Positions 15,775-19,909 of a stretch of DNA of 64,000 nucleotides are shown one piece after another (position 1 is the first letter of the stretch; every line of letters begins with the position of its first letter). The DNA comes from Devosia sp. MC521 (GTDB taxonomy: Bacteria > Pseudomonadota > Alphaproteobacteria > Rhizobiales > Devosiaceae). The stretch covers positions 3,428,001 through 3,492,000 of the forward strand of contig NZ_CP059902.1 in assembly GCF_014127105.1 (NCBI RefSeq), written 5' to 3'. The notes beneath the pieces are model-generated. The model saw nothing but the letters and a program-made list of their open reading frames with translations. It was not told the DNA's origin and did no database searches. Both the position numbers and the translations under genes were made by a program.

Positions 15775-16716
15775 ATGACCACACAAATTTCCCCGGCGCC
15801 GCGCAGTGACCTTTTGGGCTATGGCCTTGCCTTTGCGGGGGCGGCGCTGTTCTCGACCAAGGGCGTTTTCATCAAGCTCGCCTTTGCTGCTGGGGTAACA
15901 ACCGAGGGCACGCTGGCGCTGCGCATGCTGGTCGCCCTGCCCGTCTACCTCGTGATTTTGGCGATACTGCTCTCACGCCGACCGGAACTGAAGGCGCTGC
16001 TGACGCCCAAAACGCTCGCGGCCTCAATGGCGGTCGGAGCCCTAGGTTATTATCTCTCAAGCTATCTCGATTTCGCAGGGCTGGCTTTTGTTTCAGCCCA
16101 ATATGAGCGGCTGGTGCTGTTCACCTATCCGTTCTTTGTGCTGCTCTTTGGCGTTTGGTTTTTCGGTGACCGGATGATCTGGCAATTGGTGCCGCCCATG
16201 TTGGTGAGCTATGCCGGACTGCTGGTGATCTTTGTCTGGAACCTCACCGTGTCGCCCGATGGGCTTTGGCAGGGTACGCTTTTGGTCTTGGGATCTGCAC
16301 TGACGTTCGCGCTCTATCAGCACTTGGCCAAGCGCCAAATGCTGATTCTGGGCTCAGGGCTGTTCACCTGCATCGGCATGGCGACAGCGGCTGTGCTGGC
16401 CATCGGCCAATCTGCCGTGCTCGACGGGGTCGCTGCCTATGCCCAGTATGACAGCTACATCTGGTCTCTTGCGTTCATGCTCGGGATTTTTGGCACGGTG
16501 CTGCCGTCGTTCTTGCTGAACACGGCAATCTCGCGGATTGGCGCCCGCGCCACCTCGTCGACGGCCAGTTTTGGACCCATCGTGACGATTTTGCTCGCCG
16601 TTGTCATTTTAGGTGAAGCCTTCACCCCTTATCACGCGTTAGGCACTGCACTGGTTCTTTCAGGTTCATGGCTCTTTGCCAAAAAGGAGCGCCAGTACAA
16701 AATCAAAAGCGCATGA
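15775..16716 (+). CDS. EamA/DMT-family transporter
   Basis: 313 residues with about ten hydrophobic helices arranged as two EamA repeats (about 15-150 and 165-305). Features of the family include GAALFSTKGVFIKLAFAAG at the start, SYLDFAGLAFVSAQYERLVL, and the final helix GTALVLSGSWLFAKKE with a basic tail. Members export or import small metabolites; the substrate cannot be read from the sequence. It is not closely similar to the tandem EamA pair at 26.9-28.6 kb. Confidence 0.85.
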   Translation: MTTQISPAPRSDLLGYGLAFAGAALFSTKGVFIKLAFAAGVTTEGTLALRMLVALPVYLVILAILLSRRPELKALLTPKTLAASMAVGALGYYLSSYLDFAGLAFVSAQYERLVLFTYPFFVLLFGVWFFGDRMIWQLVPPMLVSYAGLLVIFVWNLTVSPDGLWQGTLLVLGSALTFALYQHLAKRQMLILGSGLFTCIGMATAAVLAIGQSAVLDGVAAYAQYDSYIWSLAFMLGIFGTVLPSFLLNTAISRIGARATSSTASFGPIVTILLAVVILGEAFTPYHALGTALVLSGSWLFAKKERQYKIKSA

Positions 16717-16784: not shown

Positions 16785-18125
16785 ATGAGAACATCAAGCA
16801 AGGGCCTGAGCTCTTCCCTCCTGATCGCAGCACTGATGGCCGGCCTGACATTGCCAGCATCAGCGCAAGACACGTCGGTAAATTTTGGCGACGACACTTC
16901 CGAATGGGCCAATGACGGGGAATGCGATGATCCTCGCTTCGCGGGCGAAAACATGGCCGAGGAACTGGAAGCCGCCGACACTCTAAAAGACGCGACCGAC
17001 TGCCAGACACTGTTCGATGCGGGCAAGATCACCCTCGCGGAAACAGCAGACGAAGCTGATGCTGCTGGGGCCGTGGCACGCGCAGAGGCTATTGCCGATG
17101 CTGAAATTGATTTTGGCGATGACAGCTCCGAATGGGCCAATGACGGGGAATGCGATGACCCGCGCTTCACCGGCGCGAAAATGGCGACGGAGCTTCTTCC
17201 CGAAGATGCTCTAAAAGACGCGACGGATTGTAAGGCGCTGTTTGACGCCGGAGACATCACCCTCGCAGATGGCGGCGGCGACGCTAGCCTCGAACGCACA
17301 AGCATCGACGACATCGACTTTGGCGATGATTCTTCGCAGTGGGCCAATGACCTCGAATGCGATGACCCACGGTTTGCCGGCCCGGGCATGAACAGCGCCC
17401 TGCTGCCGGAAGACGAGAAGGCTGACGCCTCTGACTGCCGCGAAGCCTATGAAGACGGGACCATCCACCTTGTCGGCGAAGGCGAGGACGAAGCGGCAAC
17501 GCCGGTTCGATCCGCTGCGGCGACTGCATCTCTTGAGGCCATCGCGCGACGCATCGATTTTGGGGACGATAGCGGCGAGTGGGCCAACGACGGCGAATGT
17601 GATGACCCAGACTTTTTCGGGCCTGGCGCGTCGAATTTGACGGATGGCGGGACACGGTCGGCGGATGCGAGCGACTGCCGCGCAGCGTTTCTGACAGGCG
17701 ATGTTTCGTTCAAGACAGTCGACCAGCTCAACGTCGCATTTGACTTTGGCGACGATAGCTCGCGTTGGGCCAATGACGGGGAATGCGATGATCCACGTTT
17801 TGCCGGGACAGGGCTCAATAAGAAGATGCTGTTCGAGGACATTATGAGCGACGCCAGCGACTGTGAGGCGCAGTTTAACGCAGGCAGTGTCACCATCAAG
17901 CCGGTCTACACGCCCGAATATGCCCTCGGCGCGCCCTATGATAGCAGCGAGATCGACTTTGGTGACGACACCTCAAGCTATGCCAATGATGGCCAGTGCG
18001 ATGATCCGCGCTTTGAAGGGCCAGGGGTCGCAGGCACCGTGTTCGAAAGCGATACACGCGCCGACGCAACTGACTGCAAATCGGCTTATGAGACCGGCAA
18101 GGCAATGCTGATCGACGCCGAGTAA
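16785..18125 (+). CDS. Secreted protein of six tandem cysteine-paired repeats
   Basis: 446 residues: a signal peptide (about 1-27, ending ASAQ) and six repeats of about 53 residues that fill almost the whole mature protein. Each begins [IVF][DN]FGDD[ST]S, continues WANDGECDDPRF (or close variants) and ends DA[ST]DC followed by an acidic or aromatic segment and a short hydrophobic strand. The mature protein has exactly twelve cysteines, two per repeat, always 26 residues apart, so one disulfide per repeat is likely. The Asp-rich core looks like a calcium-binding loop but is not a canonical EF-hand. I recognise the repeat from uncharacterised alphaproteobacterial secreted proteins, not from a protein of known function. 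It stands alone between an EamA transporter and the sdh operon. Confidence 0.8.
   Translation: MRTSSKGLSSSLLIAALMAGLTLPASAQDTSVNFGDDTSEWANDGECDDPRFAGENMAEELEAADTLKDATDCQTLFDAGKITLAETADEADAAGAVARAEAIADAEIDFGDDSSEWANDGECDDPRFTGAKMATELLPEDALKDATDCKALFDAGDITLADGGGDASLERTSIDDIDFGDDSSQWANDLECDDPRFAGPGMNSALLPEDEKADASDCREAYEDGTIHLVGEGEDEAATPVRSAAATASLEAIARRIDFGDDSGEWANDGECDDPDFFGPGASNLTDGGTRSADASDCRAAFLTGDVSFKTVDQLNVAFDFGDDSSRWANDGECDDPRFAGTGLNKKMLFEDIMSDASDCEAQFNAGSVTIKPVYTPEYALGAPYDSSEIDFGDDTSSYANDGQCDDPRFEGPGVAGTVFESDTRADATDCKSAYETGKAMLIDAE
16878..18116 (+). repeat. Six in-gene repeats encoding the FGDDSS/WANDGECDDP module
   Basis: Repeat units lie at about 16878-17036, 17106-17264, 17313-17474, 17553-17714, 17739-17900 and 17952-18116. 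Spacers of 24 to 78 bases separate them. The segment coding WANDGECDD is nearly identical in DNA between units 1, 2 and 5, which suggests recent duplication or gene conversion. Units 3, 4 and 6 vary at the Gly/Glu and Arg positions. Confidence 0.85.
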
Positions 18126-18143: not shown

Positions 18144-18174
18144 AAAAACGGCGGGGTCAACCCCCGCCGTTTTT
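18144..18174. terminator. Bidirectional intrinsic terminator between repeat protein and sdhB
   Basis: AAAAACGGCGGGG, a five-base loop, then CCCCGCCGTTTTT: a perfect stem flanked by A and T runs, lying between the convergent repeat-protein gene and sdhB. It can terminate both transcripts. Confidence 0.88.
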
Positions 18175-19339: not shown

Positions 19340-19888
19340 TTACCTACGTGTAATTTTTACAGGACGGGGACCGAACATGGAGTCGATCGTGCCCGCATAG
19401 CTGTCGTTACCATCGCTGGCGAACTGGCCAATAATTCGTCCCGACGCATTGGTCAGCGCAAAGCCCGTCCCTGCACTCATCCAGCCGCGCGCATCGCTAA
19501 AGTCGCTCGAACAGAAACCGGTCTGATCGAGCACCTTGGCGCCAGCACTGCCGCTTAAGGAGCCATTGCCGAACGACACCTGGCAGCTGCGGGCAAATTC
19601 GTCGCGAATGTACCAAGTGCCCATCGGCGCGAACAAGGACGAGGGCGAGCCATTGCTGGAGACGTGGAACGAGCCGCCCGTGACCACACGCTGTCCGGTC
19701 TGCGGATCAATCTGGCTCGTCGTCGTGATAAAATTATTGCCCTCTGACGAGGTCACCGACTGCTGGCCGAAGGTGCCCGACCCAGAGCTATAAGTGCTTG
19801 GGCCGGTGTCGGTGGTTTCACAGCCAGCCAAAAGAAGCGCCACGCCGAGGGTGAGGCAGCCTGCGGCTATGCGTTGCGGTTTAGTCAT
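19340..19888 (-). CDS. Lipoprotein with AprI/Inh-like (I38) protease-inhibitor domain
   Basis: 182 residues from the ATG at 19888 (in-frame starts at 19894 and 19906 also exist). A lipoprotein signal ends LLLAGC, so Cys23 would be lipidated. A Gly/Ser/Thr-rich linker follows, then an eight-strand-like domain from about residue 85: GTWYIRDEFARSCQVSFG, a second Cys about 31 residues later, and a final GRIIGQFASDGNDSYAGTI. This pattern matches AprI/Inh metalloprotease inhibitors and the Brucella Omp19 type of surface lipoprotein. Position between sdhA and sdhB is unexpected. Inhibitory activity is inferred from fold only. Confidence 0.7.
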   Translation of the reverse strand: MTKPQRIAAGCLTLGVALLLAGCETTDTGPSTYSSGSGTFGQQSVTSSEGNNFITTTSQIDPQTGQRVVTGGSFHVSSNGSPSSLFAPMGTWYIRDEFARSCQVSFGNGSLSGSAGAKVLDQTGFCSSDFSDARGWMSAGTGFALTNASGRIIGQFASDGNDSYAGTIDSMFGPRPVKITRR

Positions 19889-19909
19889 AACCATTGCTTC
19901 CACCAAACC

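Follow-up and report, generated by a model that had tools for sequence, protein, structure and literature searches.

The 446-residue product of an open reading frame in Devosia sp. MC521 consists of a signal-like start followed by six small modules. We read each module as an exported, disulfide-clamped and probably Ca2+-stabilised ligand-binding unit, one that serves as a protease exosite in other bacteria and as part of a multivalent scaffold here, and we give this reading a probability of about one half. The disulfide itself, the metal, the ligand binding and the location are what we infer, from the signal-like start, the module count, the conservation of Cys and Asp, fusions to proteases in relatives, predictions of the fold and of a rigid module pair, and positional orthology. 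The module is uncatalogued, has a confidently predicted fold, is present in almost all genomes of one genus and shares a chain with proteases of two unrelated classes. A definition of it would allow many exported proteins without a known function to be annotated.

The window, the whole stretch of 64,000 nucleotides that was analysed (NZ_CP059902.1, positions 3,428,001 to 3,492,000), belongs to a genome of 3.78 Mb in a single contig. The features that matter here are the following.

15775..16716, + strand: EamA-type transporter gene (PF00892), immediately upstream, a conserved neighbour
16785..18125, + strand: putatively exported six-module repeat protein, 446 aa (open reading frame and composition)
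16785..16865, + strand: predicted signal peptide, residues 1-27 (ending LPASA, followed by QD), no lipobox (read from the sequence, crude hydropathy script)
16875..17036, + strand: module 1, Cys 47/73 (Cys positions, six-unit profile)
17103..17264, + strand: module 2, Cys 123/149 (Cys positions, profile), the module modelled with AlphaFold
17310..17471, + strand: module 3, Cys 192/218 (Cys positions, profile)
17550..17711, + strand: module 4, Cys 272/298 (Cys positions, profile)
17736..17897, + strand: module 5, Cys 334/360 (Cys positions, profile)
17898..17948, + strand: linker KPVYTPEYALGAPYDSS joining module 5 to module 6, partly helical by prediction, with a confidence equal to that of the modules (recurrent motif, model)
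17949..18110, + strand: module 6, Cys 405/431 (Cys positions, profile)
18149..18174, + strand: GC-rich hairpin followed by a T run, a likely terminator facing the convergent sdhB (reading of the sequence alone; a separate scan has no entry at 18149-18174)

The protein is probably exported, and would be either periplasmic or released. An earlier note on this DNA had called it secreted, and the wider family agrees: the window open reading frame starts with a classic signal sequence, a crude script finds signal-like starts in 86 of 92 family open reading frames, and P24, A27 and Q28 at the end of the signal peptide are nearly invariant in an alignment (A4) of 24 chosen homologues. Among the same 92 open reading frames six have a lipobox-like match, at least one of which (L047) is doubtful. 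From residue 28 onwards, the mature protein has a computed mass of about 44 kDa and a pI of 4.05, with 106 Asp and Glu residues against 27 Lys and Arg.

Each of the six modules, of about 54 residues, contains two Cys, which together make up all 12 Cys of the protein, and every pair is 26 residues apart. The claim of an invariant spacing of 26 therefore stands for the window protein and does not extend to the family. In a census of 511 modules from 99 distinct open reading frames, at loci enriched for Devosia, the spacing of the 506 modules with exactly two Cys is 26 in 465, 27 in 33, 20 in seven and 25 in one, so that 26 is typical rather than invariant; to judge from these sequences, the inter-Cys loop can be one residue longer or six residues shorter. 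Four further modules have three Cys, and the last one is cut off at a contig end. Both Cys are present in every one of the 510 complete modules that passed the search threshold, at which modules too degenerate for the profile would be missed; the pattern used to scan the collection contained the first Cys, and the other modules of each protein are free of that selection.

The six-unit profile recovers its own units at E 9.4e-26 or better, which is circular because it was built from them. Its independent matches are two units in a second gene of the same genome (E 5.6e-26 and 5.3e-20), both with a Cys spacing of 27. This two-module paralogue has a signal-like start and lies between prs and rplY (L002 1396-1920, - strand; G000:C1 near 2676400-2676760), and a module gene at L100 is likewise flanked by prs and rplY.

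The search that the earlier note had proposed, for variation in copy number and for domain partners among relatives, returned both: proteins carry 1 to 17 copies, and the partners are caspase-like and trypsin-like proteases. Of the 253 stretches confirmed in the collection scan, the best 80 (79 loci) were kept, and the sample leans to Devosia as a result. The longest arrays have 17 modules in one open reading frame (L043 3810-7442) and 16 (L074 1735-5031), with further two-module open reading frames close by. In L033 (4818-6211) and L076 (4791-6226) the array runs over two overlapping open reading frames in different frames, through a frameshift or a sequencing error.

Conservation is concentrated around the two Cys. 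Alignment A2 comprises 109 modules, namely the six of the window and 103 of 108 chosen representatives; the other five are one each from L066, L094, L099, L101 and L104, those of L066 and L104 having three Cys, and L043 supplies 19 of the 109 rows. Invariant throughout are G7, C19, D20, D21, F24, G26, D41, D44 and C45, and core position 16 has Asp in 88% of rows. Distant alphaproteobacterial relatives have a shorter module with four Cys, in which C5, C13, C26, C35, D14, D31 and D34 are invariant (alignment A3, 38 of 46 distinct four-Cys modules). The two profiles align over 36 columns in hhalign with a probability of 98.4, pairing C19 and C45 with C13 and C35, and the core D-x-x-C-D...D-x-x-D-C is found in 487 of the 511 modules of the two-Cys type and in 37 of the 38 four-Cys modules. 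Both forms occur in one genome (L126 and L127, G809), where the four-Cys form is fused to a trypsin domain.

The one disulfide per module suggested earlier is plausible on these data, in which no complete module has lost a Cys and the sister subfamily has gained a Cys pair; arrival of the extra Cys as a pair is what closure of both forms by disulfides would predict. The earlier note had also suggested metal binding; the evidence bearing on it here is the conserved Asp around the two Cys, which probably hold Ca2+. D41 could be a helix cap instead of a metal ligand: in the AlphaFold model of a single module (module 2, pLDDT 93) it directly precedes a helix of 10 residues, 42-51, that carries the second Cys.

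The module belongs to no known family that we could find. Nothing exceeds the curated cut-offs of Pfam for the protein, the 109 modules and the paralogue, or of NCBIfam for the protein; the best Pfam match of the window protein, PF17810, reaches 21.3 bits against a cut-off of 23.3. The protein and the two-Cys profiles have no match among PDB sequences at E<=10, and the four-Cys profile has two at chance level (E 1.1 and 1.6). Foldseek searches with the models of the module and the module pair gave no usable neighbour, and literature searches on the core string, on Devosia secreted repeat proteins and on bacterial Notch-like repeats turned up nothing on this module. The earlier note was thus right to find no characterised family, and right that the core is not an EF-hand, since no EF-hand family matches the protein or the 109 modules at E<=10. 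Excalibur and LDL-receptor class A domains are short Asp-rich Ca2+ modules with disulfides. The module resembles them in being short and rich in Asp, but neither is among the matches of the 109 modules at E<=10.

The nearest known likeness is to the Lin-12/Notch repeat (LNR, PF00066), another small, Asp-rich extracellular module found on a secreted protease. The module could be a divergent bacterial LNR, a true homologue in which the Ca2+ cage and one or two of the disulfides have been retained, although we consider this unlikely. The core pattern described above, shared by nearly all modules of both forms, equals that of Notch1 LNR-B and LNR-C in alignments, and 16 of 109 two-Cys modules score above the 99th percentile of their Cys-fixed shuffles against a Notch LNR profile, a slight excess. 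In PAPP-A, a human secreted protease, the LNRs likewise have one or two disulfides (in a 1-3/2-4 pattern) and bind Ca2+, and LNR3 takes part in binding both substrate and inhibitor, according to the part of that report available to us (PMC9579167). On the other hand, none of the 38 four-Cys modules exceeds the 99th percentile of its own shuffles, PF00066 finds nothing at E<=10 where the module genes of nine genomes lie, and it is absent from the families that match the 109 two-Cys-type and 38 four-Cys modules at that threshold. The hhalign scores are no better than those of column shuffles, being reached by 23 of 200 free shuffles and 21 of 200 with fixed Cys for A2 and by 13 of 200 and 24 of 200, respectively, for A3, and Foldseek lists no Notch or PAPP-A chain. 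The sensitivity of the Notch profile is low, because true PAPP-A LNRs reach only E 0.038-0.049 with it. By sequence there are one or two Cys pairs per module here, against three disulfides in LNRs and two or one in PAPP-A, and the module differs further in its length of about 54 residues instead of 30 and in an added C-terminal helix and strand in the model, the helix being the one that would hold the second Cys. Membership was not established by PF00066, PDB profile searches, hhalign shuffles or HMM shuffles; we keep it as a rival explanation. The module may work like an LNR, and we do not class it as one.

Beyond the single module, AlphaFold predicts that modules 5 and 6 with their linker form one rigid unit (pLDDT 91.9, pTM 0.81, linker blocks 93-96; mean pLDDT over the five models 77.8 to 91.9). 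A linker of the form G-[AST]-P-Y-D precedes the last module in 44 of 99 open reading frames; its invariance in the two-module alignment is circular, because the rows of that alignment were selected by the linker motif.

The history of the array is in keeping with a fixed C-terminal end. For each of 277 modules, taken from 45 proteins that carry four modules or more (the window protein and 44 named loci chosen by their titles, nearly all Devosia, one labelled 'Rhizobiales bacterium', with L033 and L076 entered as part arrays), the closest foreign module lies at an equal distance from the C-terminus in 44 of 45 cases for the last module, 44 of 45 for the next-to-last and 42 of 45 for the third-last, and further inwards in 29 of 45, 26 of 40, 16 of 33 and 10 of 19. 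For only 39 of the 277 is a module of the same protein as close as the best foreign one, or closer; foreign modules far outnumber own modules in this comparison, which biases it towards foreign matches. The array had been described as probably still expanding or converting, with nearly identical DNA in units 1, 2 and 5. The second statement was too strong: over the 63-nt core, units 1 and 2 differ at 7 positions and units 1 and 5, 2 and 5, and also 3 and 5 at 12, and over 162 nt the identities are 75% (units 1 and 2), 67% (2 and 5) and 64% (1 and 5). Nor is the first supported, since each of the six window modules has its nearest relative in another protein and the best internal DNA pair, at 76%, ranks 45th among 69 arrays; on these two comparisons we reject active gene conversion in the window array. 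Other arrays of the genus have adjacent units of up to 95% DNA identity, the mark of a recent duplication. Together, the positional conservation and the DNA identities indicate that the array is old and its C-terminal part fixed, and that N-terminal and middle units have been duplicated in some species, and not recently in the window's array.

The proteases with which the module shares a chain suggest that it is a binding module. The scan for partners was limited to proteins picked for their long non-module regions, and its counts give no fusion frequency. Modules occur together with PPC and Peptidase_C14 domains in eight proteins, seven from metagenome-assembled genomes labelled Gammaproteobacteria or a subgroup (L097, L056, L063, L095, L102, L105, L106) and one labelled Proteobacteria only (L047), and inspection by eye finds the catalytic-looking motifs YSGHG and D-S/A-CFSGG unbroken in L047, L097 and L106. 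A ninth caspase-like protein, L112, joins Peptidase_C14 to Sel1 and PG_binding_1 and has its modules C-terminal to the caspase domain. Trypsin or Trypsin_2 is the partner in L114, L116, L120, L104 and L127. The number of fused copies ranges from one on a caspase-like protein (L097) to seven on a trypsin-like one (L120). No protease partner exceeds the cut-off in L080, L101, L036, L043, L082, L109, L113, L115, L124 and L084, the last of which has a PPC domain in an open reading frame that ends early. The PPC domain (PF04151) offers a parallel, as a non-catalytic unit next to secreted proteases that is adjacent in the same proteins; its sequence is unrelated, however, and the PPC stretches are separate from the modules. 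A search of the window genome for Peptidase_C14 found none at E<=0.001, and partnership with a resident caspase thus does not account for the free array. The genome contains one secretin gene.

We are thus able to propose a mechanism in which a string of six small modules would be exported, to stay in the periplasm or be released. A disulfide would join the Cys of W-A-N-D-G-E-C-D-D to that of D-A-x-D-C and so close each module, the conserved Asp near both Cys most likely holding Ca2+ and stabilising the loop, and the module so formed would be a unit of ligand recognition. In other bacteria one to seven copies are joined to the domain of an exported protease, caspase-like or trypsin-like, on its N-terminal side in most cases and on its C-terminal side in one, probably as an exosite for a substrate or partner, or else a single copy is carried by a lipoprotein. 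In Devosia and its relatives the module would have become a free-standing multivalent array, in which the last two units and their linker may behave as a single rigid element and the N-terminal and middle units, varying in number, tune the avidity. A bolder version of this proposal is tentative: that the modules are a family of Ca2+-dependent, one-disulfide recognition domains, absent from Pfam and NCBIfam and unmatched in fold in the PDB, which arose on the LNR core pattern or converged to it, and which serve exported proteases of caspase-like or trypsin-like type as a detachable exosite, Devosia and its relatives having made of them a stand-alone multivalent adaptor that almost all genomes of the genus retain. 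The module would also offer a means of studying how the caspase-like proteases that bacteria export find their substrates; in the part available to us of a survey of prokaryotic caspase homologues, 529 of 671 sequences are reported to lack the information on which it based function and localisation (PMC3501461).

Fusion to proteases speaks for recognition, and acidity by itself would be equally compatible with a cation buffer, that is, an extracytoplasmic, high-capacity and low-affinity store of Ca2+ or Mg2+ that binds no ligand and resembles calsequestrin or calsymin in function only. Calsymin (Rhizobium etli CasA) is an exported Ca2+-binding repeat protein of an alphaproteobacterium, and an EF-hand protein; the window protein shares the probable export and the repeats, and differs in a module without an EF-hand family match. 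A strong excess of acidic residues, the low pI and repeats of variable copy number are as a buffer would have them. Conservation is nevertheless of a specificity that such a store does not need, with invariant Cys, Gly and Phe and position-specific modules, and neither the predicted rigid C-terminal pair with its recurrent linker nor the use of a single copy on the proteases of L095, L097 and L102 would be expected, and we think a buffer improbable.

A multi-headed protease inhibitor would put the same fusions to another use, each module blocking a protease and the fused modules serving as inhibitory pro-regions of their own catalytic domain. Small two-Cys modules in tandem, signal-like starts and fusion to two unrelated protease classes would suit an inhibitor, as would the variability of some loop columns (for example alignment columns 30, 39 and 40) that a variable reactive site needs. 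The range of fused copies from one to seven and the position of the modules after the caspase domain in L112 are unlike a pro-region, and make this a still less probable account. An inert spacer or envelope protein, a string of stable beads in which length and charge alone matter, would accommodate 1 to 17 copies and the Ala/Pro/Glu-rich linkers between some modules, but is very improbable given nine invariant positions in 109 units, positional orthology and a predicted rigid pair. Recognition by a disulfide-clamped module thus remains the reading we prefer.

The module is a regular feature of its genus and scattered beyond it. Of the 75 genomes of the genus, 74 contain it, and the one without it is 55% complete; in the family it is present in 93 of 136 genomes and 5 of 16 genera; in the class sample 12 of 385 genomes match at E<=0.001, two of them (G086 and G213) over 20 positions each and probably by chance, and in the phylum sample 10 of 398 at E<=1e-5, all four counts including the window's own genome. 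Named matches, among the best 80 of 253 stretches, include Erythrobacter, Rhodobacteraceae, Salinarimonas, Afifella and gammaproteobacterial metagenome-assembled genomes. A plasmid search with three query sequences, run without a positive control, gave no match. PHROG 3362, of unknown function, matches module 1 at E 0.0033 but only 2 of the 109 modules (best E 0.035); a phage tblastn search with one module gave nothing at E<=10, and none of 53 pattern matches in viral contigs was confirmed as a relative. We take the PHROG match as probably due to chance and a phage link as unlikely.

Among the 79 loci kept from the best 80 of 253 stretches, a relative of eamA lies 120-392 nt before the first module on the same strand in 48, and sdhB is found in 32, many loci ending before its position. 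A lipoprotein-like gene between sdhB and sdhA (19340-19906, - strand) matches Inh (PF02974), a family of protease inhibitors, at 25.5 bits against a cut-off of 25 and has a relative in only 4 of these 79 loci. One contig from a metagenome-assembled genome labelled 'Kofleriaceae' (L091) has 13 modules in pairs with a Devosia-type linker; its label within Myxococcota is doubtful because its eamA neighbour is of the Devosia type, and the contig is possibly mis-binned. In L123 (1005-2987, + strand), a very long low-complexity stretch rich in Ala, Glu and Asp separates the first two of three modules.
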